Shown here: one piece after another, positions 49,166 through 64,000 of the stretch | Position numbering within the stretch: the first letter of the stretch is position 1 | Layout of the letters: the number at the start of each line of letters is the position of its first letter | Program-made: the position numbers and the translations under genes | Notes under the pieces: model-generated | Seen by the model: only the letters and a program-made list of their open reading frames with translations | The model's database searches: none | Told to the model about the DNA's origin: nothing | Assembly (NCBI RefSeq): GCF_041415945.1 | Contig: NZ_JBGCUS010000001.1 | Span: forward strand, 186,001-250,000 | DNA length: 64,000 nt | DNA from: Ancylobacter sp. IITR112 | GTDB taxonomy: Bacteria > Pseudomonadota > Alphaproteobacteria > Rhizobiales > Xanthobacteraceae | Direction: 5' to 3'

Positions 49166-50446
49166 TCAATGCATCCCCTTGGCGCTGTAGGGCAGCCAGG
49201 TGGCGATGCCCGGCACGGCAATGATCAGCAGCACCACGGCGACCAGCGCCAGGATGAAGGGCGCCGCCGCACGGCTGCCGCGCAGCAGGTCGGTCTTGGC
49301 GATGCCGCAGGTGACGAACAGGCAGGCGCCCACCGGCGGGGTGATCAGCCCGATGGCGAGGCCGATCACCGTCACCACGCCGAACTGCACCGGGTCGATG
49401 TCGAGCCGCTTCACCAGCGGCCACAGCACCGGCACCAGGATGATGATGTTGGCGGCGAGGTCCAGCAGCATGCCGGCGAGGAGATAGACGCACAGGATCA
49501 GCAGCAGCACGAGCTGCGGGTTGTTGGTCAGCTCCAGGATGAACTGCGCGGCCGCCTGCGGAATCTGCTCGCGGGTGACGATCAGCCCATAGACCGAGGC
49601 GGCGGCGATCATCAGCATGACGATGCCGGTCGTGACGGCGCTGTCGAGGATGATGCCGGGCAGGTCGCGCCAGGCGATGCTGCGATAGACATAGCGCCCG
49701 ACCACCACGCCATAGAGCACCGCGACCACCGACGCCTCGGTCGGGGTGGCGATGCCGTAGCGGATCGAGCCGATGATGACGACCGGCATCAACAGGCCCC
49801 AGACGCTGGCGCGGGTGGCGCGGGCGATGCTGCCCAGCGTCGGGCGGGGGCCGCGTTGGTAGCCCTGCCGCACCGCGATCAGCCACGCCGTGACCATCAG
49901 CGCGACCGTCATCAGAATGCCGGGGATGATGCCGGCGATGAACAGGTCGCTCACCGAGACGCCGGTGACGACGGCGAACACGATCATCGGGATGGACGGC
50001 GGAATGACCACGGAAATGGTCGAGGCGCTCGCCGTCACCGCGGCGGTGAACGGCGCGCCATAGCCCTTCTTCAGCATGGGGGGAATGAGCGCCCCGCCGG
50101 TGGAGGAGGCTTCCGCCACCGCCGAGCCGGTCATGCCGCCCATCAGCATGCCGGCGCCGATATTGGCGTGTGCCAGCCCGCCGCGCATCCAGCCGACCAC
50201 GGCATCGGCGAAGTCGATGATGTCGCGAGCGATGCCGCTGCGGGCCATCAGGTGCCCGGCGAGCAGGAAGAACGGCACCGCCAGCAGCACGAAGCTGTCC
50301 ATGGCGGCGGTCATTTTCTGCACCACCAGCGCCAGCGGCAGGCCGCCATAGAGCAGCGCCATCACCGAGGCCACGGCGAGGGCGAAGGACACCGGCATGT
50401 TGAGGATCAGCAGGACGGCGAAGGCAATGAAGAGGACCGTGGCCAT
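49166..50446 (-). CDS. dctM: TRAP transporter large permease (DctM)
   Basis: A 426-residue membrane protein with about 12 helices. DctM marks include FVLLAVPFFLLAGHLMARSGI, MTGSAVAEASSTGGALIPPM, SASTISVVIPPSIPMIVFAV and LITPPVGACLFVTCGIAKTD. It couples sodium-driven uptake with the small subunit encoded just upstream (50452-50940) and the binding protein (51035-52012). Being in one operon with ApnO, OiaK and OiaX, it probably imports D-apionate or a related sugar acid; the ligand is inferred. Confidence 0.94.
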   Translation of the reverse strand: MATVLFIAFAVLLILNMPVSFALAVASVMALLYGGLPLALVVQKMTAAMDSFVLLAVPFFLLAGHLMARSGIARDIIDFADAVVGWMRGGLAHANIGAGMLMGGMTGSAVAEASSTGGALIPPMLKKGYGAPFTAAVTASASTISVVIPPSIPMIVFAVVTGVSVSDLFIAGIIPGILMTVALMVTAWLIAVRQGYQRGPRPTLGSIARATRASVWGLLMPVVIIGSIRYGIATPTEASVVAVLYGVVVGRYVYRSIAWRDLPGIILDSAVTTGIVMLMIAAASVYGLIVTREQIPQAAAQFILELTNNPQLVLLLILCVYLLAGMLLDLAANIIILVPVLWPLVKRLDIDPVQFGVVTVIGLAIGLITPPVGACLFVTCGIAKTDLLRGSRAAAPFILALVAVVLLIIAVPGIATWLPYSAKGMH

Positions 50447-50451
50447 GGATG

Positions 50452-50940
50452 TTACTCCTGCGAAGCCGCCGGCGAGGGCGGACGGGCGCCATAGATCCAG
50501 CCGATCAGGATGTCGCCGATGATGAGGACGCACATGGCCGCGTAGCCGGCATAGACCGTGCTCATCGGCACATCGAGCACGGCGGAGGGCTGGTTGCTGG
50601 TGAGGCGGAGGAAGCCGATGCAGGCGGCGAGCGTCGCGCCGCAATAGAGCAGCACGATCAGCTCCACCAGCCTCCCGCAGGCCCGCTCCAGCCCGGGCAG
50701 GCGCAGATAGGTCACCGCGTCGAGCGCGATATGCGCCCGCTTGCTCCAGGCGAACCACGCCGCGAGATAGCCGACCCAGACGAAAAGGAAGCGCGCCAGT
50801 TCCTCCGACCAGGTCAGCGGGTCGTTGAAGACGTAGCGCCAGATCACCTGGCCGAGGCAGACAATCACCATGGCGCTCAGCAGCGCGCACAGCAGGGCGC
50901 GCGCCAGCCATTCGACGCCGGTCCAGAACTTCAGCAGCAT
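50452..50940 (-). CDS. dctQ: TRAP transporter small permease (DctQ)
   Basis: A 162-residue protein with four hydrophobic helices, typical of DctQ. WRYVFNDPLTWSEELARFLFVWVGYLAAWFAWSKRAHIALD is the conserved family core, running from helix 1 to the second loop. It starts MLLKFWTGVEWLARALLC. It is encoded between the binding protein (95 bp upstream, with a hairpin) and DctM (5 bp downstream), as is normal for TRAP loci. Confidence 0.92.
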   Translation of the reverse strand: MLLKFWTGVEWLARALLCALLSAMVIVCLGQVIWRYVFNDPLTWSEELARFLFVWVGYLAAWFAWSKRAHIALDAVTYLRLPGLERACGRLVELIVLLYCGATLAACIGFLRLTSNQPSAVLDVPMSTVYAGYAAMCVLIIGDILIGWIYGARPPSPAASQE

Positions 50941-50989
50941 GTCACACCTTGATTGCCGCAGCGGCGGGCGCGCGCGGAAGGCGCAGGGG

Positions 50990-51005
50990 GCACAAGCGGT
51001 GCGCC
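50990..51005. repeat. 16-bp repeat shared with the oiaX promoter region
   Basis: GCACAAGCGGTGCGCC occurs here, between dctQ and dctP, and again at 55746-55761, just upstream of the oiaX extended -10. It forms part of an inverted repeat in the second copy. Its role is unknown. Confidence 0.5.
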
Positions 51006-51019
51006 CGTCCTTCGGGCGC
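51001..51019. terminator. Intercistronic hairpin after dctP
   Basis: GCGCCCG and CGGGCGC form a 7-bp stem with a five-base loop just past the binding-protein stop on the minus strand. It may limit read-through into dctQ-dctM or stabilise the dctP message. Confidence 0.4.
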
Positions 51020-51034
51020 GCCGCCGGCGCGGGC

Positions 51035-52012
51035 TCAGTTCGCCGCCGCCTTTATCTTGGCGACCACGGCCGGATCAATGTTCTTGAACGCCGAGGCGGT
51101 GTTGGCGGTGGCTTCCTGGAACGGGGTGATGTCGACTTCTTCGACGATCATGCCCTTGTCGGTCAGCTTCTTGAGCTGCTCGGCCTCCAGCCGGGCCGAG
51201 GTCTGGCGCTGGAAGCTCGTCGCTTCGACCAGGGCGTCCTTCAGGATGGTCTGCTGCGCCGGGGTGAGGCCGTCCCACACCTGCTGGCTGAACAGCACCA
51301 GATGCGGGCCATAGACGTGCCGCGTCAGCGTCATGTACTTCTGCACCTCCCACAGTGAATTGCTGTAGACGATGGTGACCGGGTTCTCCTGCGCGTCGAT
51401 CACGCCCTGGCTGAGGCTGGTGAACACCTCGCCCCACACCATCGGGATCGGCGAGGCGCCCAGTTCCTTGAACGCGGCGATGTGCACCGGGTTCTGCATG
51501 GTGCGCAGCTTCATGCCCTTGAGGTCGGCGGGCGACTTCACTTCCTTCTTGCTGGTCAGGCTGCGCCAGCCATTTTCCCACCAGGCGAGGCCGACAATGC
51601 CGCGGCTCTGGAACTGCGCCAGCAGATCCTGGCCGATCTCGCCGTCCAGCACCTTGTAGGCATGCGCCGAATTCTTGAACAGGAAGGGCAGGTCCACCGT
51701 GCCGAGCGCGGGCACGAAGGCGACCAGCGGGCCGGTGGAGACCACCGCCATGTCGACCGTGCCGAGCTGCAGCCCCTCGACCATTTCGCGCTCCTCGCCG
51801 AGCTGGCGGTCGGGATAGATTTCGATCTTGAGGTCGCCCTTGCTCTTCTCGGCGACGATTTCGGCGAATTTCTCAAGCGCGATATGGGTGGGATGCGCGG
51901 TCTGCGTCCCGTGGCCGGCCTTGATGACGGTGGTGGCGAAGGCTGGCGTGGCCAAGGGCGCGGCAGCGAGGCTGAGCGCGGCGGCGGCCGCGAGGGCGAT
52001 AATCCGGTTCAT
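51035..52012 (-). CDS. dctP: TRAP transporter substrate-binding protein (DctP)
   Basis: A 325-residue periplasmic protein with signal peptide (IIALAAAAALSLAAAPLATP, cleavage after AFA). DctP-family marks: IKAGHGTQTAHPTHIALEKF, IEIYPDRQLGEEREMVEGLQ, and the ligand-carboxylate Arg in LKGMKLRTMQNPVHIAAF. That Arg indicates an acid ligand. The gene lies between apnO and dctQ, with hairpins in both gaps (52042-52089 and 51001-51019). D-apionate is a good candidate ligand from context. Confidence 0.93.
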   Translation of the reverse strand: MNRIIALAAAAALSLAAAPLATPAFATTVIKAGHGTQTAHPTHIALEKFAEIVAEKSKGDLKIEIYPDRQLGEEREMVEGLQLGTVDMAVVSTGPLVAFVPALGTVDLPFLFKNSAHAYKVLDGEIGQDLLAQFQSRGIVGLAWWENGWRSLTSKKEVKSPADLKGMKLRTMQNPVHIAAFKELGASPIPMVWGEVFTSLSQGVIDAQENPVTIVYSNSLWEVQKYMTLTRHVYGPHLVLFSQQVWDGLTPAQQTILKDALVEATSFQRQTSARLEAEQLKKLTDKGMIVEEVDITPFQEATANTASAFKNIDPAVVAKIKAAAN

Positions 52013-52041
52013 GGCGTTCCTGTCCCTGTTGGATTTGATGC

Positions 52042-52089
52042 GTCCGGGGCCGTCGAGGGCCCCGGACGAGCCGGGCGGTCGCGCCCGGC
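52042..52089. terminator. Tandem hairpins between apnO and dctP
   Basis: A 10-bp stem, GTCCGGGGCC with GGCCCCGGAC around six bases (52042-52067), is followed by an 8-bp stem, GCCGGGCG with CGCCCGGC around four bases (52070-52089). Both are perfect. They separate the enzyme half of the operon from the transporter half. Confidence 0.5.
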
Positions 52090-52100
52090 GGGGCGCCGCT

Positions 52101-52952
52101 TCAGGCGGCCTTGGGCGGGTTGCAGATTTCCTCGACCGAGCGCTGCACGGCCTTGGGGTCGAAAATGCGCTCCAGCCAGCCCTCGCGGAAAATCTGCGGC
52201 CGGGCCTGGTCGATGGCATAGAGCGCGCCGTCGGAGAACTTGCCTTCGGGGAAAATCTCGAAGGCGATGGCGAGCTCGATGGTCAGATGGCCGAGCAGGA
52301 AGTCGGTCGCCGCCTGACGCGGCACGCCGCGGCGCACGGCCTCATCCGTCGCCTCGCGCAGGGCGAGGCAGAGCGTGGCGCCGATGGTCTCCGCCAGCGC
52401 CGGCTCCATGATGGCGATCTGCTCCACCGTGCAGCGATGCGCGCGCATGACAGGCTTGTAGATGGTGCGGGCGATCTGCTCGCACTGGGCATAGTGCTCG
52501 TCCGGTCCCTGCATCAGCGCGCAGACAATGTGCTGCTTGGCGTGCACGCCGCCGAAGAAGTCGTTCTTCGCCGCTTCCGTCACCTCGTCATTGAAGATCG
52601 GCGGGTGGCAGGGATGGGTGACGAAATAGGTGACATCCTCGCGCTTGGGCAGTTCGCCCGCATGCGGGGCGGCGGCGTCGAGCATGATGATGGCGGTGCC
52701 GGGCTTCACCTTCTCGATGAAGGTGTGCGCGATCTTGCCGATCAGCCGGTCCGGCACAGCCATGAGCACGGCATCGGCATCGGCGAGCGCGTTGTCGCCG
52801 TCGACGCAGTCGAGCCCGGTCTTCTCCTTCAGCCGGGTCCGGCCGGCCTCGGTCGGCTCGACATGCATCACCTCATAGGGCGAGCCCTGGAGATTGGTGG
52901 CGAGCCGGACGCCCATCTTTCCGCCGGCGCCGAGCAGGGCGATCTTTTTCAT
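52101..52952 (-). CDS. apnO: D-apionate oxidoisomerase-like NAD-dependent enzyme (ApnO candidate)
   Basis: A 283-residue protein with an N-terminal Rossmann motif (IALLGAGGKMGVRLATNL) and a C-terminal helical domain like that of phosphogluconate/hydroxyisobutyrate dehydrogenase relatives. ApnO oxidises D-apionate and isomerises it to 3-oxoisoapionate. The segment FVTHPCHPPIFNDE holds possible catalytic His residues. It is encoded next to the OiaK-like kinase (19 bp), and all downstream steps of the RuBisCO-like branch are present, which is the main support for this identity. Similar proteins are often annotated only as NAD-binding oxidoreductases. Confidence 0.78.
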   Translation of the reverse strand: MKKIALLGAGGKMGVRLATNLQGSPYEVMHVEPTEAGRTRLKEKTGLDCVDGDNALADADAVLMAVPDRLIGKIAHTFIEKVKPGTAIIMLDAAAPHAGELPKREDVTYFVTHPCHPPIFNDEVTEAAKNDFFGGVHAKQHIVCALMQGPDEHYAQCEQIARTIYKPVMRAHRCTVEQIAIMEPALAETIGATLCLALREATDEAVRRGVPRQAATDFLLGHLTIELAIAFEIFPEGKFSDGALYAIDQARPQIFREGWLERIFDPKAVQRSVEEICNPPKAA

Positions 52953-52971
52953 CGGAATTCTCTCCCTTGGG

Positions 52972-54354
52972 TCAATGGTTGGCGCCGCCTTTGGCAGCGC
53001 TGAAGAAGTCCGGCCGGCCCATCTGGCCGCCCTTGAACGTGATTTCGAGCCCGTCATGAGGCCCTTCCGCATAGGCGCGGCAGAGCGGTGAGCCCGGCGC
53101 GAGCGGCGCCAGCGCGGTCACGGCATAGATGCCGAGCGCCATGCCGGCATGGCCCGACGTGTCGCCGCCGGAAATCACGGCGCGCGTCAGCCCGGCCCGC
53201 TCGACCACCGCATCCAGCACCCGCCCGAGCCCGTCGCCGATGCGGGCGTTGACTTGCGCCGGGGCGGCGCCTGCCGCGTCGATCGCGTGGCCGAGCGCCG
53301 GCACCGCCGGGTCATCCGGGCCGCTGGCGGTGAAGATGAGCGGGTCGCGGCCGGCCTCCAGCGCGGTGAGCGCCGCCGCCGTGCCGCGCGCGATTTCGGC
53401 TTTCCAGGCGCCCGCATCCACCGCGTGCGTCGCGTCGAGCCTTATGCCCTCGAAGCCGTTCTCCAATGCGTGGCCGATCTGCACCGCCGTGATCGGGGAA
53501 CACGAACCGGAGACGACGGCGATGCGCGCGGCCCGCGCCGGCGGTGCCGTCGGCGCTTCCGCTGCCAGAAGCCCGGCGCGGCGCCAATAGGCGACCAGCG
53601 CATATTCCAGCCCCTGCGAGCCGAGGGCGAACAGCCGCTCGCCGCGCTGTTCCCACACCAGCCGCCCGGCCTGCGCCAGCGTCTCGTCGTCGAGCACGTC
53701 GAGCGCGAGGATGCGAGCGCCGGCCGCGCGCTCGGCGGCGAGTTGCGCCTCGGCCCTTCCGGTCTTCATGGCGACGAAATCGACGAGGCCGACCGGCATC
53801 TCCGTCTGCCGCGCGAGGTGAAGGCGCACATCCGCCTCGTTCATTGGCGTCACCGGGTGGCGCGCCATGACAGGGTGGCGGTCGAGCCGGTAGCCGCTGC
53901 CGTCAATCGCGGCGAAGAGGTTGCCGAAGGCCTGGTAGCGGGCGATGGCCGGGGCGCCGACAATGAGCGGGTGCCAGTCGCCGCCGAGAATGCGCTCGCC
54001 GATTTCCGCCGCGCGGCCGATGGAGCCGATCTCGGGCGAGGAATCGAAGGTCGAGCACACCTTGTAATGGCTGATCGGCGCGTTCAGCGCGGCCAGTTGC
54101 TCGAAGATCGGCGGCAGCGCCTCATCCATCCATTCCGGCGGCTGCGAGCGGGCGATGCCGGCAACGCCGATGGCCCGCATCCCCTCGAAGCGGGCGAGCC
54201 GCGCCGGCGTCGGCGGTTCGAGGAACAGCACGGTCGGCAGGCCGGCGAAGCTCAGCACCTCCATCACCGCCGACGAGCCGGTGTAGTCGTCGCCATAGAA
54301 GGCGACGAGCGGGCCGTCCGGCAGCGCAGGGGAGGTGGCGGGCGCCGGGCTCAT
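52972..54354 (-). CDS. oiaK: Four-carbon acid sugar kinase family protein (3-oxoisoapionate kinase, OiaK candidate)
   Basis: A 460-residue DUF1537-family kinase. The N-terminal substrate domain begins PLVAFYGDDYTGSSAVMEVL, a family hallmark. The C-terminal nucleotide domain shows VVSGSCSPITAVQI and GGDTSGHAGMALGI. Members phosphorylate acid sugars; in loci with a RuBisCO-like protein and ApnO the substrate is 3-oxoisoapionate (4-phosphate product). It overlaps the OiaX-like gene by four bases (ATGA), so the two act in sequence. ATG 54354 is preferred over the Arg-rich upstream frame. Confidence 0.82.
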   Translation of the reverse strand: MSPAPATSPALPDGPLVAFYGDDYTGSSAVMEVLSFAGLPTVLFLEPPTPARLARFEGMRAIGVAGIARSQPPEWMDEALPPIFEQLAALNAPISHYKVCSTFDSSPEIGSIGRAAEIGERILGGDWHPLIVGAPAIARYQAFGNLFAAIDGSGYRLDRHPVMARHPVTPMNEADVRLHLARQTEMPVGLVDFVAMKTGRAEAQLAAERAAGARILALDVLDDETLAQAGRLVWEQRGERLFALGSQGLEYALVAYWRRAGLLAAEAPTAPPARAARIAVVSGSCSPITAVQIGHALENGFEGIRLDATHAVDAGAWKAEIARGTAAALTALEAGRDPLIFTASGPDDPAVPALGHAIDAAGAAPAQVNARIGDGLGRVLDAVVERAGLTRAVISGGDTSGHAGMALGIYAVTALAPLAPGSPLCRAYAEGPHDGLEITFKGGQMGRPDFFSAAKGGANH

Positions 54355-55610
54355 GCCGCATAGGTCTCCAGCGCGCGGGCGAGCGCGGTGTGGTCGCGGG
54401 CGTAGTCGGGCAGCGGCACGCCGGTCATCGCCGCTTCCCACGCCTCGCGCAGCGAGGCGACGCCCGCCGCCGGGCCGTCCGGATGGGCCATGATGCCGCC
54501 GCCGGCGGCGAAGATCAGGTCGGCGGAGCCCAGCGCGGCATAGGTGCCCGGCGCCTGCTTGGCCGACTGGCCGGAGGAGAACACCGGCATGGCGATGCAG
54601 GGCTTGTCGTCGAACAGGGGGGTGAGGCACTCGCGGGCGGAGGCGATGACGCTGTCGTCAGCCTCGGAGAACTTGTTGGCGAGGCCGTTCACATGCATGT
54701 GGTCGGCACCGGCCAGCCGCCAGATCTTCTGCCAGGCGACATAGGACCAGCCGAGCATCGGCGCGCGCGAGAGATAGCCCCAGCCATTGCGGTGGGCGTG
54801 CAGCGGCAGCTCGGTGAAGCGGCCGAGTTCGATCATGCCGACAAGGCCGACCGAGTTGAGGCTGGCCATGACGCAGGTGCCGCCGAGTTCCTGCACGAGA
54901 TCGTGGCGGCGGCGCATCTGGTCGATTTCGCCAGTCAGGTTGAAGGCGAACATCACCTTCTTGCCGGTGCGGTCGGCATGGTCGTTGATGACGCGCATCA
55001 CCGCGCGCACCCGGTCCTCGAAGCGGCAATGCGGGCCGTCGGACTGCAATTCGTCGTCCTTGATGAAGTCGATGCCCGCTTCCGCCAGCAGCTTCACAAG
55101 GTCCGCCGTCTCGGTCGGCCCGAAGCCGACGCTCGGCTTGACGATGGTGCCGATGATCGGCCGCCCCTCGACCCCGGCGAGACGGCGCGTGCCGGCGATG
55201 CCGAATTTCGGCCCGCCATAGGCCTGTGCGAAATCCTGCGGCAGGCGGATGTCGAGAAGGCGCAGGCCGGAGAACTGCTTCAGTTCGAACAGATTGCCGG
55301 CCACGGTCGCCAGCAGGTTCGGCAGTGAGGGGCCGAGATTGTCCATCGGCCAGGAAAGGGTGACGCGCGCCCGCTGGATCACCCCGCCCGCGGGATGGCC
55401 GGCGCCGGGCAGGGAGGGGGCCTCCGCGGTGCCCACGAGTTCCAGCGCCTCGATCCGGGCGGCGGAACGCTCCTTCAGCTCCGGCGTCTCGCCGGGAATG
55501 GCGACGAAGGTACCGCTGGACTGTTCGCCCGCCATCGCCTCGGCGGCGCGGCGGGGATCATAGGCGGTCTCGATCAGATAGTCGGCTTCGATCCGGTGGG
55601 GCGCGGGCAT
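54351..55610 (-). CDS. oiaX: RuBisCO-like protein (3-oxoisoapionate-4-phosphate transcarboxylase/hydrolase, OiaX candidate)
   Basis: A 419-residue RuBisCO-like protein. Active-site motifs are intact: Lys158 in GTIVKPSVG, the carbamylation motif Lys184-Asp-Asp-Glu187 in DFIKDDE, HAHR at 271-274, HVNGLANK with Lys313 seven residues after His306 (loop-6 spacing), SSGQ at 345-348 and the phosphate-binding GGG at 370-372. OiaX cleaves 3-oxoisoapionate 4-phosphate to 3-phosphoglycerate and glycolate. ATG 55610 has AGGA eight bases upstream; an alternative GTG at 55631 lacks it. It heads the oiaX-oiaK-apnO-dctPQM operon. Identity is set by context more than by residues. Confidence 0.85.
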   Translation of the reverse strand: MPAPHRIEADYLIETAYDPRRAAEAMAGEQSSGTFVAIPGETPELKERSAARIEALELVGTAEAPSLPGAGHPAGGVIQRARVTLSWPMDNLGPSLPNLLATVAGNLFELKQFSGLRLLDIRLPQDFAQAYGGPKFGIAGTRRLAGVEGRPIIGTIVKPSVGFGPTETADLVKLLAEAGIDFIKDDELQSDGPHCRFEDRVRAVMRVINDHADRTGKKVMFAFNLTGEIDQMRRRHDLVQELGGTCVMASLNSVGLVGMIELGRFTELPLHAHRNGWGYLSRAPMLGWSYVAWQKIWRLAGADHMHVNGLANKFSEADDSVIASARECLTPLFDDKPCIAMPVFSSGQSAKQAPGTYAALGSADLIFAAGGGIMAHPDGPAAGVASLREAWEAAMTGVPLPDYARDHTALARALETYAA

Positions 55611-55723
55611 GCGGCTGTCCTGGCTCGGCACGCAAGGCCGCTCCGCCGCGCATATGCGCGCCGCCCAGCCTGTCGTGCGTTTCCTCTATGGTGAGTCTCT
55701 GCTCACTCATATCTTGAGATAGT

Positions 55724-55761
55724 CATTATACCAGTTGCAGAGGGCGCACAAGCGGTGCGCC
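55724..55761 (-). promoter_or_regulatory. Extended -10 promoter and operator of the oiaX operon
   Basis: On the minus strand GCAACTGGTATAATGA (55739-55724) is identical to 41694-41709, including the extended -10 TGGTATAAT. Upstream, GGCGCAC and GTGCGCC (55743-55761) form a perfect inverted repeat carrying the 16-bp repeat shared with 50990-51005. Further small inverted repeats, GTGAG-N6-CTCAC (55692-55707) and TATCT-TG-AGATA (55711-55722), lie downstream of the -10. Confidence 0.65.
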
Positions 55762-55806
55762 GGCCGCTGCGGCAGCGTTCGGTGGTAAATGCGCCCGCCG
55801 CGTCGA

Positions 55807-55868
55807 TTGACTCGTTCAATAAATCCGCATACCGTCTGCGCATGTTCGGTGTTTCTACAAACGGTATG
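55807..55868 (+). promoter_or_regulatory. Promoter and inverted repeat before the MerR-XRE-cupin-racemase regulator
   Basis: TTGACT (55807-55812) is a good -35. CATACCGT (55828-55835) and ACGGTATG (55861-55868) form a perfect 8-bp inverted repeat separated by 25 bases, nine bases before the ATG. A MerR- or XRE-type dimer could bind this repeat; a clear -10 is not seen. Confidence 0.5.
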
Positions 55869-55876
55869 TAGACCGC

Positions 55877-57766
55877 ATGACCCAGCCGGCCGCCCGCTTC
55901 CCCTTCTCCATCGGCCATGTCGCCAAGGTGACCGGCATTGCGGTGTCGACCCTGCGCTCCTGGGAGAATCAGGGCCTGCTGACCCCCAGCAAGTCGGCCG
56001 GCGGGCATCGTTCCTATGGCGAGGCGGAGATCGAGCGGGTGCGCCGCATCGACCGCATGCGCCGCGTCGACGGCCAGAGCCTTTCCGCCATCCGCCGGCT
56101 GCTCGACAGCGAGGAGGAGGCCGCTCCCGCACCGGAAGGCGAGGCGGCGCCGGTCGCCTTCAACCATCTCGGCGCCCGCGTGCGTGGCCTGCGCCAGGAA
56201 GCGGGCATGTCGCTGCGCGAATTGTCCGAGCGCACCGACATCGCCACCTCGCATCTCTCCATGTTCGAGCGCGGCGTCGCCTTCCTGTCGCCAGCGCGGC
56301 TCAACGCCATCGCCGAAGTGTTCGGCCGCACGCTGGCGGAACTGCTCGGCGGCACCAAGGGGCGCGATTTTCCCGTGGTGCGCCGGGGGCAGGGGCGCAT
56401 CGTCGGCTCCTTCGGCCCCGGCGTCACCATCGAGCAGCTCACCGTCTCGCAGCGGCTGATGGATGCGGAGGTGTGGACCATCGACCCCGAGCGCGAGAGC
56501 GACGGCTTCTACGCCCATGAGGGCGAGGAACTGATCTATGTGCTGGAAGGCTCGCTCGAACTCGCGCTCGCCGACCGCGACGCCGAGGTGCTGAACCCCG
56601 GCGACGGCGCCTATTTCAACAGCCGCATCGCCCATCGCTGGCGCAACACCGGGCCGGTGCCGGCCAAGGTGCTGTGGATCAACACCGACAGCGACCGCCT
56701 CTCCTCCATGAGCTTCGAGCGCAGCGACCGCCGGCTCGGCCTCGGCGCCGGCATTGGCGAGGGCATTGGCGAGGGTGCGCTCAGCCTGGAGCTGCCCTCG
56801 GGCGCGCGCACCTTCCGCGTCATCGAAACCCACACCGAGGGCCATCCGACCCATATTCTGATCGAGCCGCTGGAAGGGCTGGACGCCGACAGCGTCGCCG
56901 GCAAGGCGCGGCAGTTCGCGGAGCGCTATGACAGCCTGCGCCCGATGCTGCTGCACGAGCCGCGCGGCCATTCCGGCGCCTTCGGTCTGGTGCCGGTGGC
57001 CTCCAGCGCGGCGGATTTCGGCGCCTTCTTCATCTCCTCCTATGGCTATCCCGGCCTGTGCGGCCACGCCATCATGGGCTACACCGCCGCGCTGCGGGCG
57101 CTCGGCCGCCTCACCCGCCACACGCGCTTCACCATCGAGGTACCGAACGGCATCCTCAGCGTCGAGGTGGGTGTGGACGGCGACGCCGACGCCATCGCCC
57201 TCGACATGCCGCCCGCCCTCATCGCGGAGGCGGGCCGGCGCGTGGCGATCGACGGGCTGGACCTCGATGTCGCCATCGCCATGTGCGGCGACTGCACCGC
57301 GCTCGTCGACGCGCAGGCCGCCGGGCTGACGCTGGAGGCGAGCCATATCGACCGGCTGCTCGCCCTGGGTGACAGCCTGCGCCGCCATCTCAACGAGGCG
57401 CTGCCGCGCCGGCGCGGGGCGCAGCCCAGCGTCGATTCCGTGCTGTTTCACGGCACGGACGAGGCCGGCGCGGTGCGCCAGTTCCTCGCCATTGATCGGC
57501 AGAAATTCGACCGCTCCCCCGGCGTCGCCGGCCTTGCCTGCCTCCTCGCCTTGCGCGCCGCCACCGGCGCCGCGCAGCCGGGGACGCGGCTCGACGCGGT
57601 CAGCCTGTTCGGCGGGCGCCTGTCCGGCGAACTCATCACCCTGACCCACGGCGCCGGCGGTGCCGTGGCCGCCACGACCCGGATCACGGGACGCGCGCAT
57701 CTGAAAGCCGTGGCGACGCTCATCCAGGAGATGGGCGATCCGCTCGGCAGCGGCTTCCTGCGATAG
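55877..57766 (+). CDS. Four-domain regulator: MerR HTH, XRE HTH, cupin and inactive proline-racemase domain
   Basis: A 629-residue fusion. Residues 8-75 form a MerR-type helix-turn-helix (FSIGHVAKVTGIAVSTLRSW). Residues 97-155 form an XRE-type one (LGARVRGLRQEAGMSLRELS). A cupin covers about 190-270 (GEELIYVLEGSLELA; PGDGAYF). Residues 311-628 are a complete proline-racemase fold. Catalytic Cys395 survives in GLCGHAIMG, but the second site, DRSPCGTGT in enzymes, reads DRSPGVAGL, with Gly549 for Cys. The domain can hardly racemise and probably binds the ligand. The gene leads the operon for an amino-acid ABC transporter and a racemase-family enzyme, so it should sense hydroxyproline or an analogue. 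Confidence 0.88.
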   Translation: MTQPAARFPFSIGHVAKVTGIAVSTLRSWENQGLLTPSKSAGGHRSYGEAEIERVRRIDRMRRVDGQSLSAIRRLLDSEEEAAPAPEGEAAPVAFNHLGARVRGLRQEAGMSLRELSERTDIATSHLSMFERGVAFLSPARLNAIAEVFGRTLAELLGGTKGRDFPVVRRGQGRIVGSFGPGVTIEQLTVSQRLMDAEVWTIDPERESDGFYAHEGEELIYVLEGSLELALADRDAEVLNPGDGAYFNSRIAHRWRNTGPVPAKVLWINTDSDRLSSMSFERSDRRLGLGAGIGEGIGEGALSLELPSGARTFRVIETHTEGHPTHILIEPLEGLDADSVAGKARQFAERYDSLRPMLLHEPRGHSGAFGLVPVASSAADFGAFFISSYGYPGLCGHAIMGYTAALRALGRLTRHTRFTIEVPNGILSVEVGVDGDADAIALDMPPALIAEAGRRVAIDGLDLDVAIAMCGDCTALVDAQAAGLTLEASHIDRLLALGDSLRRHLNEALPRRRGAQPSVDSVLFHGTDEAGAVRQFLAIDRQKFDRSPGVAGLACLLALRAATGAAQPGTRLDAVSLFGGRLSGELITLTHGAGGAVAATTRITGRAHLKAVATLIQEMGDPLGSGFLR

Positions 57767-57807
57767 GCCTCGCCTCAACACCAAACCAGAGAACTAGGGA
57801 ACCGACG

Positions 57808-58683
57808 ATGACCACCGCCTCGTCCCTCCGGCCGTCTCCGGCCGCCGGCTCGCTTTTCCGCTCTTTCGTCCTCATGTTCGTCGGCGCCGTCGTGCTGGCG
57901 TTCTCGACCTTCCAGTCCGCCTTCGCCGCCGATCCGAACCTCGTGCTCGACCGCATCCGCAAGAGCGGCGAGCTGCGCGTGCCGGTCATGATCGGCGAGG
58001 AGCCGGGCTATATCCGCGACCGCAACACCGGCGCGTGGAGCGGCTTCTACATGGACTGGGCGAACGACATCGCCACCCTGCTCAACGTCAAGGTCGTGCC
58101 GGTTGAAACCACCTGGGGCAACCTCGCCGCCGACTTCCAGGCCAACAAGATCGACATCGCCTTCGGCCTGAACCCGAACCCCAAGCGCGGCCTGGTGGTG
58201 GACTATCTCAGCGTGCCGCTGTTCACCGATGCCTGGGCCATCGTCACCAAGCCGGGCTTCGCCAAGAAGACCTGGGCCGAGCTGAACGACCCGTCGGTGC
58301 GCATCGTCGTGCAGAAGGGCGGCACGATGCAGGTCGTCGCCGAGGCGCTGACGCCGAAGGCCAACATCATCGTGGTGGAAGACCGCCCGCTCGGCATCAT
58401 GGAGCTTCAGGCCAACCGCGCCGATGCCATGATCCTCGCCGTGTTCGACGCCATCGACGTGTCCAAGGCGATCAACGGCCAGATCGTGCTGCCGAGCCCG
58501 ATGCTGCTCAACCCCGCGACCATCGGCATGCGCCGCGAGGAAGGCAATGAGGGCTACGAGAACTGGCTCACCAACTGGGTGAACCAGCAGCGCGCCCTCG
58601 GCCTGGCCCAGGGCAAGCTGCGAAAGGCCTTCGAGGCGCGCGGCATCGACCTCTCGGTGCTGCCGCCCGAGTTCAACTTCTGA
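57808..58683 (+). CDS. Amino-acid ABC transporter substrate-binding protein
   Basis: A 291-residue family-3 periplasmic binding protein. The signal region (SFVLMFVGAVVLAFSTFQSA, cleavage after AFA) is preceded by an unusually long hydrophilic N-terminus of 18 residues. RIRKSGELRVPVMIGEEPGY and FQANKIDIAFGLNPNPKRGL are typical mature motifs. It lies 41 bp after the four-domain regulator and before the permease. In this operon the ligand is probably 4-hydroxyproline or a similar cyclic amino acid; that is inference. Confidence 0.9.
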   Translation: MTTASSLRPSPAAGSLFRSFVLMFVGAVVLAFSTFQSAFAADPNLVLDRIRKSGELRVPVMIGEEPGYIRDRNTGAWSGFYMDWANDIATLLNVKVVPVETTWGNLAADFQANKIDIAFGLNPNPKRGLVVDYLSVPLFTDAWAIVTKPGFAKKTWAELNDPSVRIVVQKGGTMQVVAEALTPKANIIVVEDRPLGIMELQANRADAMILAVFDAIDVSKAINGQIVLPSPMLLNPATIGMRREEGNEGYENWLTNWVNQQRALGLAQGKLRKAFEARGIDLSVLPPEFNF

Positions 58684-58768: not shown

Positions 58769-59416
58769 GTGTTCGACTGGTCCGTCATCACCCAAAACGC
58801 CCATCTGTTCGCCTGGGGACTGGTCGTCACCCTCGAATACACGGTGATCACCTGCGTCCTCGGCCTGATCGTCGGGCTGCTGATCGCGCTGGTGCAGCTC
58901 TCGCCGCTCAAGGCGCTGCGCATCATCGGCATGCTGTTCGTCGAGTTCTTCCGCAACGTGCCGCTGCTGGTGTGGCTGCTGTGGAGCTATTACGCGCTGC
59001 CGATCTTCGCCGGCATCAATATTTCCAAGCAGGCGGCGGGCATTCTCGCCCTCAGCCTCTATGGCGGGGCGTACTATGCCGAAATCCTGCGCGCCGGCAT
59101 CCAGGCACTCGACCATGGGCAGGCGGACGCGGCCAAGGCGCTGGGCATGCGCTCCTGGCAGGCGATGCGCCGCATCATCCTGCCGCAGGCGTTGCGCCAG
59201 ATGATCCCGCCGCTTGCCGGCCAGACCATCATCCAGATGAAGAACACCACGCTGCTCTCGGTGCTCACCGTGCCGGACCTGCTCTACCAGGCAAGCTACG
59301 TCTCCTCCTTCACCTACCGGCCGATGGAGGTCTACACCGTCGTCGGCCTCATCTTCCTCGCCGTTCTCATTCCCTCCAACTATCTCGCGCGCCGGCTCGA
59401 GATGCGCCGTCACTGA
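58769..59416 (+). CDS. Amino-acid ABC transporter permease
   Basis: A 215-residue inner-membrane permease of the HisM/GlnP type starting from GTG 58769 (AAGGT upstream). [19 protein letters not shown] and the EAA loop [20 protein letters not shown] are diagnostic, followed by [16 protein letters not shown]. Only one permease gene is present in this operon, so the channel is probably a homodimer. It lies between the binding-protein and ATPase genes. Confidence 0.92.
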
Positions 59417-59430
59417 GAGGGGGCCCCGCC

Positions 59431-60252
59431 ATGACCCGTCTTCCCGCCGACGCCCCCGCGCTGGTCGAGGTGAGCCAGCTCCGCAAGCGCTACGGCTCGC
59501 ATGAGGTGCTCAAGGGCATCGACCTCACCGTCTATCCCGGCGAGGTGGTGGCGCTGCTCGGCTCGTCCGGCTCGGGCAAGACCACGCTGCTGCGCTGCGT
59601 CAACCTGCTGGAACAGCCCGCCTCCGGCCGCATCACCGTCGACGGCTCGACCATTTTCGACCGGGCGCCGGACGGGCACGACAATGCCCGCATCAGCGGC
59701 CGCGAAGTCGCCGCCATGCGCAGCCGCGTCGGCATGGTGTTCCAGCAGTTCAACCTGTTCCCGCACATGAACGTGCTGGCCAATGTGATGGAAGGCCCGC
59801 GCACCGTGCTGGGCGAGGCGGACGCCACCAACCGCGCCCGCGCCATGGACCTGCTCGCCAAGGTCGGCATGGCCGAGTTCGCCGACCGCATGCCCGGCCG
59901 GCTGTCGGGCGGGCAGAAGCAGCGCGTGTCCATCGCCCGCGCGCTCAATATGCGCCCCTCGCTGATGCTGTTCGACGAGCCGACCTCCGCGCTCGACCCG
60001 GAGCTGGTCGGCGAGGTGCTCAACACCATGATCACGCTGGCCCGCGAGGGGATGACGATGCTGGTCGTCACCCATGAGCTGGGCTTCGCGCTGGAGGTCG
60101 CCACCCGCGTCGTGTTCCTTGATCAGGGCGCGATCTGCGCCGAGGGCACGCCGCAGGAGGTGCTGCTGCATCCCACCATTGAGCGCGTGCGCGCCTTCGT
60201 CAACCGTTTCCACGCCACCGCCGAGCTGATGCGCCCGCTGCTTCAGACCTGA
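59431..60252 (+). CDS. Amino-acid ABC transporter ATP-binding protein
   Basis: A 273-residue GlnQ-type ATPase. Walker A is GSSGSGKTT, signature [15 protein letters not shown], Walker [14 protein letters not shown] and switch [18 protein letters not shown] 59431 follows GAGAGGGGG and lies 14 bp after the permease stop. It energises the single-permease transporter. Nothing unusual is visible apart from about 12 extra residues at the N-terminus. Confidence 0.94.
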
Positions 60253-60359
60253 CGCGCCGCCCGGCGCCTTCCACACCTCGAACGTCTTCCGCGCGGGGCC
60301 GCGTGCCACGCCACGCCCCCGCTCTGTCCCGACACAGCCTTCCTGAAACGAGACCGCAC

Positions 60360-61268
60360 ATGAGCAAGACCAACTGGCAGGGCATTCACAGTGTCCTCGT
60401 CACCCCCTTCCTGCCCGAGGGGCCGATCGACTTCCCGCGCTTCGAGGCGCTGGCCGAGGCCAATATCGCCAATGGCGCCGACGGCCTCATCGTCTGCGGC
60501 TCGACCGGCGAGTTCTACGCCATGAGCGTCGCCGAGCGGGTGAAGCTGTTCGAAGCGACGGTGAAGGTCGCCGCCGGCCGCGTGCCGGTGCTGGCGGGAG
60601 TCTCCGACCTCCACACCGATGTGGTGCTGGAACTGACAAAGGCGGCCGAGACCACGGGCTGCGACGGTATCCTTGCCCTGCCGCCGATCTACGCGAAGCC
60701 CGATCTGCGCGAGGCCGAGCATTTCTACCGCCGCATCTGCGCCGCCTCCGGCCTGCCGGTCATGCTCTACAACAGCCCGGTCCGCATCGGCGTCAACATC
60801 ACCCCCGATCTGGTGGCGCGCCTCGCGGAGATTCCGAATGTCGTCGCCATCAAGGATTCCTCCGGCGACATCCAGCAGGTCGCCGAGCTGTGCCAGAAGG
60901 TGAAGGGCGAGCTGGCGGTGTTCGTCGGCTATGAGACGATGATCCGCTCCTCCCTGCCGCTCGGCGTGGTCGGCGTCGTCGCCATGGCGCACCAGCTCTC
61001 CGGCCGCCTCGTGCGCGCCTATTTCGACGCCTGCGCCGCGGGCGACGCCGCCACGGCGGACCGGCTGGAGCCGGCCTTGTTCGCCATCTATCGCTGCTTC
61101 AAGAGCGGCAGCTTCTATGCCGGCATCAAGGCGGCGATGAACGCGCTCGGCCAGCCCGTGGGCATTCCGCGCGAGCCGCTGCTGCCCTTCACCGACGCGC
61201 AGCAGGCTTCCGTGGCGAAGATCCTCGCCGAGGCCGACGTCGCCGCCCTCATCAACACGCTCGCCTGA
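60360..61268 (+). CDS. DapA-family lyase/deaminase (1-pyrroline-4-hydroxy-2-carboxylate deaminase candidate)
   Basis: A 302-residue TIM-barrel Schiff-base enzyme of the dihydrodipicolinate synthase family. Lys165 in AIKDSSGD is the Schiff-base residue, Tyr137 lies in MLYNSPVRIG, and GSTGEFYAMS near residue 47 forms the carboxylate site. In hydroxyproline catabolism a member deaminates 1-pyrroline-4-hydroxy-2-carboxylate to 2-oxoglutarate semialdehyde. The neighbours, a 4-hydroxyproline epimerase homologue and an aldehyde dehydrogenase, match that pathway. Other roles for the family (N-acetylneuraminate lyase and keto-deoxy sugar acid aldolases) are less likely here. Confidence 0.82.
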   Translation: MSKTNWQGIHSVLVTPFLPEGPIDFPRFEALAEANIANGADGLIVCGSTGEFYAMSVAERVKLFEATVKVAAGRVPVLAGVSDLHTDVVLELTKAAETTGCDGILALPPIYAKPDLREAEHFYRRICAASGLPVMLYNSPVRIGVNITPDLVARLAEIPNVVAIKDSSGDIQQVAELCQKVKGELAVFVGYETMIRSSLPLGVVGVVAMAHQLSGRLVRAYFDACAAGDAATADRLEPALFAIYRCFKSGSFYAGIKAAMNALGQPVGIPREPLLPFTDAQQASVAKILAEADVAALINTLA

Positions 61269-61280
61269 ACGGACATTCCC

Positions 61281-62288
61281 ATGCGCTCGACCCGCATCAT
61301 CCAGGGCATCGATTCCCACACCGCCGGCTGCCCGCTGCGCCTCATCACCTCCGGCTTCGGGCCGATCCGCGGCGCCACCATGGTGGAAAAGCGCGCCGAT
61401 CTGATGAGCCGCGACTGGCTGCGCCAGCTCGTGCTGTTCGAGCCGCGCGGCTCGTTCAACATGCCGGCCGCCGTGCTCACCGAAGCCTGTTCGCCCAACG
61501 CCGATATCGGCATGCTCATTCTTGAGCCGGATACCTATCCGCCGATGTGCGGCCACTGCGCCATGGCGGTCGCCACTATCGCGGTCGAAGCCGGCTACAT
61601 AACTGCGCAGGAAGGCGAGACGCTGGTGCGGCTCGACACGCCGGCCGGCGTCGTCCCGGCGCGGGTGAAGGTGGAGAATGGCCGCGCCGTTTCCGTCACG
61701 CTGGAAATGCCGCTGAGCTTCCTCCACCAGCGCGACGTGATGGTGGAGACCAGGAGCTTCGGCAAGGTCCGCGCCGACATCGCCTTCGGCGGCGATTTCT
61801 ACCTCATCGTCAAGGGCGCCGACCTCGGCCTCGACCTGACCACCGACAATGCCTGGGCGCTGGTGAGCGCGGCGGCGGAGCTGCGCGCCGGGCTGAAGGA
61901 CATTCCGGTCCAGCACCCGACGCTGGCCCATGTCAACGAGATCTACCAGATCGAGATCGTTGGCGAGGGTGACGGCGTGCGCTTCGACGGCAAGAACGTC
62001 GTCGTCTGCCCGCCGACCGTGATCGACCGTTCCCCCTGCGGCACCGGCACCGCCTCGCGCATGGCCATGCTGCACGGCAAGGGCGAGCTGAAGGTGGGCG
62101 ACAGCTTCCGCCATGCCGGCATCCTCGACACCGTGTTCACCGGCGAGATCCATGGCGAGGCCACCGTCGGCGACCTGCCGGCGATCCGCTGCACCGTCAC
62201 CGGCTCGGCCTATCTCACCGGCAGCTTCAACTTCTTCCTCGATCCCAACGACCCGTTCCAGCAGGGCTTCCGCCTCACGGGCGTCTGA
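61281..62288 (+). CDS. 4-hydroxyproline 2-epimerase / proline-racemase family enzyme
   Basis: A 335-residue cofactor-free racemase of the proline-racemase family. Both catalytic Cys are present: Cys90 in PPMCGHCAMA and Cys253 in DRSPCGTGT. The Cys-Cys pair marks racemases/epimerases, whereas Thr at the second position marks 3-hydroxyproline dehydratases. It should convert trans-4-hydroxy-L-proline to cis-4-hydroxy-D-proline, or act on proline itself. It is encoded 12 bp after the DapA-like gene and 23 bp before the aldehyde dehydrogenase. The upstream regulator carries an inactivated copy of this same fold. Confidence 0.9.
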   Translation: MRSTRIIQGIDSHTAGCPLRLITSGFGPIRGATMVEKRADLMSRDWLRQLVLFEPRGSFNMPAAVLTEACSPNADIGMLILEPDTYPPMCGHCAMAVATIAVEAGYITAQEGETLVRLDTPAGVVPARVKVENGRAVSVTLEMPLSFLHQRDVMVETRSFGKVRADIAFGGDFYLIVKGADLGLDLTTDNAWALVSAAAELRAGLKDIPVQHPTLAHVNEIYQIEIVGEGDGVRFDGKNVVVCPPTVIDRSPCGTGTASRMAMLHGKGELKVGDSFRHAGILDTVFTGEIHGEATVGDLPAIRCTVTGSAYLTGSFNFFLDPNDPFQQGFRLTGV

Positions 62289-62311
62289 GCAAGCGGGTGC
62301 AGGAGAGGCTC

Positions 62312-63787
62312 ATGTCCCACGATTTCGACCCGAACGGCGTCACCGCCATCACCGATCACCTGATCGACGGGCGGCGCCTCGCCGGCGACGGCGCGGAAAT
62401 CGCGCTCATCCGCCCGTCCGACGGCGCGGCGATCGGCACGATCCGCGCGGCGGACGAGGCGCTGGTGGACGCAGCGATGCGCAGCGCCGCCAAGGCCCGC
62501 ACCGCGTCCGGCTGGGCCACCGCCACGGCGCTGGAGCGGGCGCGGGTGCTGAAGGCATGGGCCGACCTCATCGACGCGCGGCGCACCGAGCTCGGGCGGC
62601 TGGAAGCGGCGACGACGACCCGGCCGGTGGCCGACGTCCTCACCCGCGACCTCGTCCGCGCGGCGGGCGCCGTGCGCTATTTCGCCGAATGGGCCGACAA
62701 GATCGAGGGCTCGCTGATCGCCGGAGCGAACAGCGGCACCACCTTCCTCAAGCCGGAGCCCTATGGCGTCGTCGCCTCCATCGCCCCGTTCAACTTCCCC
62801 GCCATCAACGCCATCTGGAAGTCGGCGCCGGCGCTGGTGACCGGCAATGCGGTGGTGCTGAAGCCTTCCGAGCTGACGCCCTCCTCGGCTGTCATGATCG
62901 CCGAACTCGCCATCGAGGCGGGTCTGCCCGCCGGCCTGTTCAATGTGGTGCAGGGCGCCGGCGCCACCGGCTCGGCGCTGGTGTGCCACCCGCTCACGGG
63001 CAAGATCACCTTCACCGGCTCCTCCGCCACCGGCGCGCGGGTGATGGCGGATGCGGCGATGACCGGCACCAAGCCGCTCACGCTGGAACTCGGCGGCAAG
63101 ACGCCCCAGCTCGTCATGGACGACGCGCACGACCTCGACGCGCTCGCCGCCACCATCGCCGGCGGTTTCCTCGCCAATGCCGGCCAGGTCTGCACCGCCG
63201 GCACGCGGCTGATCGCGCCGCGCCGGCTGCTGGACGAACTCACCGACAAGATCATCGGCCTCGCGCAGGCGCGCGTCGCCGGCCCCACCTGGGACACGCG
63301 CGCGAGCCTGCCGCCAATCATCAGCGAGAAGCAGGCGGCGCGCATCGACCGCATGCTGGCGGAGACGGTGGCCGACGGCGCCACCGTGCTCACCGGCGGC
63401 CGGCGCTGCGCGAACATGAACGCCGGCGCCTATGTCGAGCCGACCGTGCTTTCGGGCGTGCCCGATACGTCGGTCGGCTTCCGCGAGGAATTCTTCGGCC
63501 CGGTGCTCTCCGTCTACGCCTATGACGACGAGGACGAGGCGCTGGCGATGGCCAACCATCCCAGCTACGCGCTCGCCGCCAGCCTCTACACCACAAGCGC
63601 CGCCAAGGCGCTGGCGCTGCCCGCCCGCCTCAGCGCCGGCACGGTCTGGGTCAACGGCCATGGCCGCCAGCCCGATTTCGCCACCCCGCAGGGCGGCTTC
63701 GCCGGCTCCGGCTTCGGCAAGGAAATGGGGCGCGCGGGGCTCGAAGGCTTCCTGCGCTTCAAGACCGTCTGGCTCAACCACGGCTGA
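62312..63787 (+). CDS. Aldehyde dehydrogenase (2-oxoglutarate semialdehyde dehydrogenase candidate)
   Basis: A 491-residue NAD(P)-dependent aldehyde dehydrogenase. The active-site Glu lies in LELGGKTPQLV and the catalytic Cys in NAGQVCTAGTRL. The nucleotide pocket is read at SIAPFNFPAIN, KPSELTPSSA and TGSSATGARV. In this operon it would oxidise 2-oxoglutarate semialdehyde from the DapA-like step to 2-oxoglutarate, the last step of the hydroxyproline route. AGGAGAG five bases upstream supports ATG 62312. Betaine- or succinate-semialdehyde dehydrogenase activity cannot be excluded by sequence. Confidence 0.9.
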   Translation: MSHDFDPNGVTAITDHLIDGRRLAGDGAEIALIRPSDGAAIGTIRAADEALVDAAMRSAAKARTASGWATATALERARVLKAWADLIDARRTELGRLEAATTTRPVADVLTRDLVRAAGAVRYFAEWADKIEGSLIAGANSGTTFLKPEPYGVVASIAPFNFPAINAIWKSAPALVTGNAVVLKPSELTPSSAVMIAELAIEAGLPAGLFNVVQGAGATGSALVCHPLTGKITFTGSSATGARVMADAAMTGTKPLTLELGGKTPQLVMDDAHDLDALAATIAGGFLANAGQVCTAGTRLIAPRRLLDELTDKIIGLAQARVAGPTWDTRASLPPIISEKQAARIDRMLAETVADGATVLTGGRRCANMNAGAYVEPTVLSGVPDTSVGFREEFFGPVLSVYAYDDEDEALAMANHPSYALAASLYTTSAAKALALPARLSAGTVWVNGHGRQPDFATPQGGFAGSGFGKEMGRAGLEGFLRFKTVWLNHG

Positions 63788-63791
63788 AAAA

Positions 63792-64000
63792 ATGTCCGAA
63801 CACGCATATGACTACATCGTCGTCGGCGGCGGCGCGGCGGGTGCCGTGCTGGCCAGCCGGCTGTCGGAAGCCTCGAACCTCAAGGTGGCGCTGATCGAGG
63901 CCGGGCGCGACACGCCGCCCGGCCTTGAGCCGGCCGACACGCTCGACGCCTATCCGATCGTCGCCTATTTCAACCGGCTCTATCACTGGCAGAACCTGTC
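63792..64000 (+). CDS. GMC-family flavoprotein oxidoreductase, N-terminal part at window edge
   Basis: The first 69 codons begin MSEHAYDYIVVGGGAAGAVL, the GMC signature with its FAD-binding GxGxxG/A, then LASRLSEASNLKVALIEAG. GMC enzymes include choline and alcohol dehydrogenases and various oxidases. The gene starts four bases after the aldehyde dehydrogenase stop, so it belongs to the operon. It could supply a missing oxidation step, but the usual cis-4-hydroxy-D-proline dehydrogenases are DadA-like, not GMC. The rest lies outside the window. Confidence 0.85.
   Translation, partial: MSEHAYDYIVVGGGAAGAVLASRLSEASNLKVALIEAGRDTPPGLEPADTLDAYPIVAYFNRLYHWQNL

Follow-up and report, generated by a model that had tools for sequence, protein, structure and literature searches.

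A MerR-XRE-cupin regulator fused to a proline-racemase domain in Ancylobacter, and catalytic cysteine loss within its family

The 64,000-nucleotide stretch of Ancylobacter sp. IITR112 analysed here (the window) encodes a 629-residue protein, in a single intact reading frame, that joins a MerR-type and an XRE-type helix-turn-helix (HTH), a cupin and a full-length proline-racemase domain. We consider it likely, at a probability of roughly two in three, that this fusion is a one-component autoregulator of its own operon in which a racemase resembling the operon's enzyme RAC2 now serves as ligand sensor. Sequence comparison supports the architecture, the number and order of the cysteine changes, the kinship with RAC2-like enzymes, the co-inheritance of the operon, a single upstream element per genome and purifying selection; a ligand-sensor function is suggested by conservation and genomic context.

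Enzyme folds are known to serve as sensors, the MocR/GabR regulators being the model case, and to our knowledge the intermediate stages of such a conversion rarely survive. In the present family, members with two, one and no catalytic cysteines occur together with relatives that lack the domain, each step corresponds to one change on the tree, and operon data exist for both the two-cysteine and the one-cysteine class. The order, fusion before inactivation, can be tested on few proteins and, if the reading is true, a cofactor-free amino-acid-binding fold would join the sensor domains of one-component regulators.

Architecture, fold and spread of the fusion

The Pfam matches of the fusion exceed their cut-offs (Table 1) and comprise a MerR-type winged HTH and an XRE HTH followed by a cupin, as in XRE-cupin regulators; the GntR winged HTH and fold-type-I aminotransferase of MocR/GabR regulators had no Pfam match in this protein. 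The racemase match spans positions 1-324 of the 325-position profile at 156 bits, versus 347 for RAC1, the intact racemase-family enzyme encoded in the window. A sequence-only reading had described these four domains in one protein, Cys395 (within GLCGH) retained and Gly549 (within DRSPG) at the second cysteine position, and an intact operon racemase with both cysteines, and each of these observations was confirmed.

Table 1. Features of the fusion gene, its upstream region and the genes that follow it (window positions).
Feature	Position	Strand	Basis
Fusion regulator MerR-XRE-cupin-proline racemase, 629 aa	55877..57766	+	ORF, Pfam, homologues
MerR-type HTH, residues 10-78	55904..56110	+	Pfam PF13411 (MerR_1, 71 bits)
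XRE-type HTH, residues about 98-160	56168..56356	+	PF01381 (HTH_3) 105-156, 47 bits; PF13560 97-155; helices in model
Cupin, residues 199-268; invariant Y212, H214, E218, H253	56471..56680	+	PF07883 (Cupin_2, 60 bits) and alignment
Proline-racemase domain, residues 315-627	56819..57757	+	PF05544 (Pro_racemase, 156 bits) and Foldseek
Cys395-Gly396-His397: first catalytic Cys kept; His397 counterpart of ligand-nitrogen binder	57059..57067	+	Alignment; PMC4113996
Asp545-Arg-Ser-Pro-Gly549: Asp kept, second catalytic Cys replaced by Gly	57509..57523	+	Alignment; PMC4113996
Promoter-operator candidate TTGACT, 17 nt, TACCGT	55807..55836	+	Overlaps conserved element TTCAATAAATCCGCATACCGTC at 55815-55836
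Inverted partial copy of upstream element	55863..55872	-	GGTATGTAGA, reverse complement of TCTACATACC
ABC transporter substrate-binding protein (SBP_bac_3)	57808..58683	+	Pfam, locus comparison
ABC transporter permease	58769..59416	+	Pfam, locus comparison
ABC transporter ATPase	59431..60252	+	Locus comparison, profile matches
DHDPS-family enzyme	60303..61268	+	Pfam, locus comparison
RAC1, intact racemase-family enzyme, Cys90 and Cys253	61281..62288	+	Pfam, locus comparison
Aldehyde dehydrogenase 1	62297..63787	+	Pfam, locus comparison
GMC oxidoreductase, start only	63792..64000	+	Window ends inside; locus L041

An AlphaFold2 prediction on a 32-row alignment gave a mean pLDDT of 81, with values of about 90 across the greater part of the racemase domain, and a pTM of 0.55; in this model the racemase domain is well defined and the mutual arrangement of the domains is not. 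Compared with the PDB by Foldseek, the top matches were structures of trans-3-hydroxyproline dehydratase, proline racemase and hydroxyproline epimerase, with TMt values of 0.75-0.88 among the best 36 rows and a best E-value of 1e-26 (TMt 0.83). In the solved 4-hydroxyproline epimerase (4HypE), Asp232 and His90 hold the prolyl nitrogen, Cys88 and Cys236 form the catalytic pair, and helix N-termini hold the ligand carboxylate (PMC4113996). Asp545 and His397 of the fusion match Asp232 and His90 by motif position, and the predicted helices 396-408 and 550-562 begin directly behind both cysteine positions, as that carboxylate contact requires.

The fusion thus shares with the proline racemase superfamily (ProR, 4HypE and T3LHypD) the full-length PF05544 domain, the fold of the solved members and the Asp and His residues, and differs from these enzymes in the glycine at the second cysteine position, an altered GTG loop and the attached regulator domains. 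Its Cys395 is paired with Gly549 instead of completing the two catalytic bases of proline racemase and 4HypE (Cys/Cys or Ser/Cys), and this glycine also departs from the first base plus Thr of the T3LHyp dehydratases, whose best model scores 109 bits against a cut-off of 540. The fused domain lies far under every NCBIfam enzyme equivalog cut-off. The word fusion does not occur in the main text of the superfamily paper PMC4113996.

At least 49 database proteins have this architecture in common (racemase, cupin, MerR and HTH_3 in a precomputed Pfam list), at 41-99% identity; the number is a lower bound from a protein search that scored the 7991 candidates sharing most words. One of them, P0002, is 99% identical to the window's protein (P0001), comes with no outside source in its entry and is probably that same protein, leaving 48 others. 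Source annotations include names such as "proline racemase/DNA-binding transcriptional MerR regulator", indicating that annotation pipelines recognise the domains.

Among genomes, the fusion is rare. With the window's genome counted in each sample, it was found in 2 of 385 genomes of the class (up to three candidates scored per genome) and in 6 of 198 of the family (up to six per genome), all six from the window's genus, for which 12 genomes are listed. In the order sample, 10 of 397 genomes matched (up to three candidates per genome), one of which, G816, has a standalone racemase only, leaving nine fusions. A contig scan with P0001 reported 11 loci, eight with the fusion: five from Ancylobacter and one each from a Xanthobacteraceae strain, a Hyphomicrobiales strain and Hoeflea. 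No plasmid match covered more than 80% of the query, viral contigs yielded no further genomes with two-cysteine or cysteine-free fusions, and a set of 5 family, 299 phylum and 61 relative genomes held no fusion genome beyond those already found.

That the fusion arose through an error of assembly, which the sequence-only reading had named as a way in which its proposal could fail, or of gene calling has a negligible probability: the frame is open and continuous in 16 different genomes, the other proteins of the same architecture number at least 48, and apart from an overlapping antisense ORF nothing speaks for an artefact. This 693-aa frame (55703-57784, minus strand) lies antisense to the whole fusion gene and is probably a shadow ORF of GC-rich coding DNA.

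Active-site states and the order of cysteine loss

Active-site residues were counted in 49 non-redundant fused proteins, comprising P0001 and its matches with P0002 dropped. Both cysteines are present in 11 (CC), the first only in 33 (CG, the window's class) and neither in five (GG, with the motifs GNH and DRSPGILG). Asp545, His397 and the EPRGH motif are found in 49/49. The glycine behind the second cysteine (Cys2) is kept in 11/11 CC proteins and replaced in 33/33 CG and 5/5 GG proteins. One CC fusion (locus L038, genome G661, RAC2 present) reads CAH instead of CGH, which may be an early step of decay.

In a quick tree of 98 racemase domains, the fused domains fall with RAC2-like standalone enzymes (support 100), away from RAC1, and the fused rows form a single group supported at 74 only. 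RAC1 lies in another part of this tree and was ruled out as the parent of the fused domain. The earlier suggestion that the operon's racemase is the related enzyme therefore needs amending: the operon does encode an intact racemase, RAC1, but the nearest kin within the operon is RAC2, located past the window's end. In a more careful tree of 66 racemase domains, for which the catalytic motifs were masked, the split between fused and standalone rows has a support of 95/86; this tree places a single Cys2 change (38 rows, 100/100) and a single change at the first cysteine (Cys1; five rows, 100/100). All 17 standalone rows carry both cysteines, which sets the direction of change as loss and not gain.

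A quick tree of the first 305 residues, rooted at the midpoint, included 29 proteins without the racemase domain; MerR-XRE-cupin proteins of this kind have the first three domains in common with the fusion (Pfam for three of them). Of the 29, 24 remote proteins fall outside the fused family. Closest to these are two CC proteins, P0050 and P0049, followed by the remaining CC proteins and then by CG and GG; some long branches meet in the trees, and the positions of P0049 and P0050 are the least certain. Together, the trees indicate that the ancestral fusion was very probably Cys-Cys. The racemase was probably active when captured, as judged from the position of the domain nearest RAC2-like Cys-Cys enzymes and from the 11/49 fused proteins that are still Cys-Cys. 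The suggested capture of an enzyme is supported, though the enzyme was probably not dead when captured; loss of the second cysteine applies to the window's protein and not across the family. Homologues with both cysteines intact, which together with racemase activity had been named as evidence against the proposal, do exist as far as sequence goes.

Among the other domain-less proteins, P0080 and P0081 nest within GG (95) and P0079 groups with 14 CG rows (85). In all three, Pfam finds MerR, XRE and cupin and no racemase, which suggests secondary loss of the domain, with a possible frameshift in P0079. Of the remaining two near proteins, P0082 stops inside the cupin and seems to be truncated, whereas P0083 has no MerR part and stands on a very long branch. 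Since MerR-XRE-cupin proteins without racemase exist, the new element is the racemase alone; the sequence-only reading had regarded both the MerR module and the inactive racemase as new. In the literature searched, mostly outside subscription papers, we found no racemase-family sensor, which is not proof that none has been described.

Rates of change differ between the classes. The median ratio of racemase to N-terminal distance is 0.96 in CC (54 pairs), 1.55 in CG (489) and 1.65 in GG (9), and 1.34-1.52 between classes, with overlapping ranges; within-class pairs with an N-terminal distance below 0.15 were dropped (1/55 CC, 39/528 CG and 1/10 GG). The CC value is not merely pulled down by two long rows: without them the median is 1.03 (35/36 pairs) and the contrast with CG, whose halves give 1.41 and 1.46, remains. 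Over the 28 pairs from eight near loci, the racemase domain has a dN/dS of 0.197, MerR 0.117, XRE 0.072 and the cupin 0.051, compared with 0.066 for RAC1 and 0.214 for RAC2. By this measure selection preserves the racemase domain to about the same degree as the operon's intact RAC2, and less well than RAC1 or the cupin.

Operon, control region and substrate

The locus comparison covered 16 fusion loci of about 20 kb, each from a different genome, and a seventeenth (L040) without the fusion; eight of the 16 are near relatives (81-100% identical in the fusion) and not independent. Behind the fusion, all 16 loci carry genes for the substrate-binding protein, permease, ATPase, DHDPS-family enzyme, RAC1, aldehyde dehydrogenase 1 and GMC oxidoreductase, even where the fusion is only 49-58% identical, which agrees with the earlier view that the fusion heads an operon encoding an intact racemase. 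RAC2 comes next in 15/16 loci, and aldehyde dehydrogenase 2 (at least 71%) is found in 14/16, partial in eight of these where the locus ends. Both follow in the window's own genome (G000, locus L041), with RAC2 an intact Cys-Cys racemase at L041:15505-16497 (G000:C1), about 1.5 kb beyond the window's end. Across the genus, RAC1 is 96-98% identical in the five other fusion genomes and at most 39% (E 1e-60) in six fusion-free genomes, so regulator and operon are inherited together.

Two of the 16 loci are CC, L036 (genome G663) without RAC2 and L038 with it, and the usual aldehyde dehydrogenase 2 is absent from both; the other 14 are CG, all with RAC2. The G663 genome yielded no RAC2-type gene other than its Cys-Cys fusion, the best RAC2 match besides the fusion being 35% identical. 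A strict rule by which Cys-Cys fusions occur only where RAC2 is absent was rejected, as G661 has an ortholog and G663 does not (n = 2 CC loci).

Upstream of the fusion, 16/16 loci, of both CC and CG class, have TTGAC and behind it an element resembling TTCAAWAWATCNNCATAC..TC (also written TTCAATAAATC...CATAC); the sites deviate at one or two places in some loci, and the rest of the upstream DNA does not align (near group). A weight matrix built from 11 of the 16 sites, at which matches arise by construction, scores the window's element at 32.8 bits, and the next best site in the window at 11.9. Genome-wide, exactly one match with at most two mismatches was found in each of six fusion genomes scanned (four perfect, two with two mismatches); a reversed-pattern control gave no matches in the genomes scanned, and the element is absent from the fusion-free G816. 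A single element per genome is compatible with a regulator whose only targets are its own gene and those that follow. Of 11 loci scanned, six (L013, L014, L034, L037, L038 and L039) carry a second copy in direct orientation 28-29 nt further downstream, which scores 12.4-20.6 bits; the window has the inverted partial copy in its place, in a region (TATGTAGA) identical in 8/8 near loci aligned.

The candidate hexamers are 17 nt apart and their assignment is weak, the -10 hexamer matching TATAAT at only 3/6 positions. MerR-family regulators typically act on promoters with 19-20 nt spacers. A consensus scan for generic sigma-70 promoters and terminators over 55600-57900 reported none, including the TTGACT-17-TACCGT candidate, and Rfam gave no match at the gathering threshold over 55000-58500.

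Hydroxyproline, proposed earlier as the ligand, finds no support in that role or as the operon's substrate. Genes for 4HypE (590 bits) and T3LHypD (619 bits), both over NCBIfam cut-offs, lie about 1.4 kb apart elsewhere in the genome (C1:4.536-4.540 Mb; loci L001 and L002, G000:C1:4535335-4541675). Neither RAC1 nor RAC2 reaches an equivalog cut-off, and the ten operon proteins scanned with Pfam include a GMC oxidoreductase and no DAO-family oxidase. The broader suggestion of capture as a probable ligand-binding domain is nevertheless supported by the conserved operon, the invariant Asp and His, the missing Cys2 and purifying selection.

On the minus strand, a divergent cluster (49166-55631) encodes a RuBisCO-like protein, a PF07005 kinase and a PGDH_C dehydrogenase (Pfam), with TRAP transporter genes judged by eye; we take it to resemble apionate-type sugar acid catabolism. 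It adjoins the fusion only in L041 and L011 among the 16 fusion loci, some of which have shorter upstream DNA, and is outside the fusion's operon.

Proposed sensor role, alternatives and related systems

In the mechanism that we propose, a MerR-XRE-cupin regulator would have been fused to a catalytically intact RAC2-like racemase or epimerase, active at that time. In the window's branch, loss of Cys2 and of the following glycine should have abolished two-base racemisation, with the residues that hold the substrate nitrogen retained. The two lobes of the domain would now most likely enclose a ligand that is a substrate or product of the operon's racemases. Closure round this ligand would alter how the two HTH domains hold the putative operator at 55807-55872 and so switch, in one direction or the other, the fusion gene together with the transporter and catabolic genes that follow. 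The altered GTG loop beside Cys2 speaks against a sensor, and the old ligand may no longer be bound.

Retention of Cys395 in 33/33 CG proteins would be surprising if all chemistry were gone. It could be explained if the domain were still a one-base enzyme, for example a dehydratase or lyase working through Cys395 alone, and the protein a trigger enzyme that both acts on its substrate and reports it; trans-3-hydroxyproline dehydratases do have Thr for the second cysteine (PMC4113996). We regard this as quite improbable, given that the known replacement is Thr and not Gly, that the glycine behind Cys2 is lost too, that the domain changes faster relative to the N-terminus than in the CC class, and that the GG class has dispensed with Cys395 as well. 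In an unlikely alternative, sensing would fall to the cupin, and the racemase domain would persist only as a structural or dimerisation remnant. Among the parts measured, dN/dS is lowest in the cupin, whose Y212, H214, E218 and H253 are invariant in 49/49, and MerR-XRE-cupin proteins without the domain exist; the three within the fused family, two in GG and one with CG rows, suggest that the domain can be dispensable. Its completeness, purifying selection at the level of RAC2, and Asp545, His397 and EPRGH in 49/49 argue against a mere remnant and are consistent with the sensor role that we favour.

More tentatively, and with the odds somewhat against it, the family could be read as a record of an enzyme turning into a sensor: a RAC2-like racemase, still active when fused, would at first have made the protein both enzyme and regulator, as the Cys-Cys fusion of G663, a genome in which no other RAC2-type gene was found, may illustrate. 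Wherever a separate RAC2 catalysed the reaction, the domain would have lost Cys2, later Cys1 in one branch, and been deleted in places. Under such a history, the same upstream element in the CC and CG classes would mean that the sensor changed and not the target site.

Among the nearest known parallels are the MocR/GabR/EnuR regulators, in which an HTH is joined to an aminotransferase-like domain that acts as sensor and not as catalyst (PMC8739950). Both systems fuse a DNA-binding domain to an enzyme fold, the sensor use here being proposed from sequence. They differ in the HTH (GntR there, MerR and XRE here), in the enzyme (a PLP aminotransferase there, a cofactor-independent racemase here) and in the persistence, within the same fusion family, of relatives with intact catalytic residues. 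In operon content, the fusion resembles HypR of the Streptomyces coelicolor hydroxyproline operon, which belongs to another regulator family, the FadR type of GntR. HypR binds its own promoter, has a racemase-family epimerase and a DHDPS-type deaminase under its control, and is not described as having an enzyme domain (PMC6608401).

Outside the family, standalone RAC2-like genes occur beside other regulators. In the fusion-free G816, such a gene lies in a similar transporter cluster with a GntR/FCD-type gene, and in Rhizobium etli Mim1 with MocR-type and Lrp-type genes. Rhizobial plasmids (L057:9139-16912, L058 and L059) hold a standalone RAC2-like gene among genes for ABC transporters, DHDPS, aldehyde dehydrogenase and the PLP-aminotransferase family. 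The last of these in L057 combines, by scan, a GntR HTH with an aminotransferase domain, as in MocR regulators, and scores 388 bits with the EhuR model, below the cut-off of 480.
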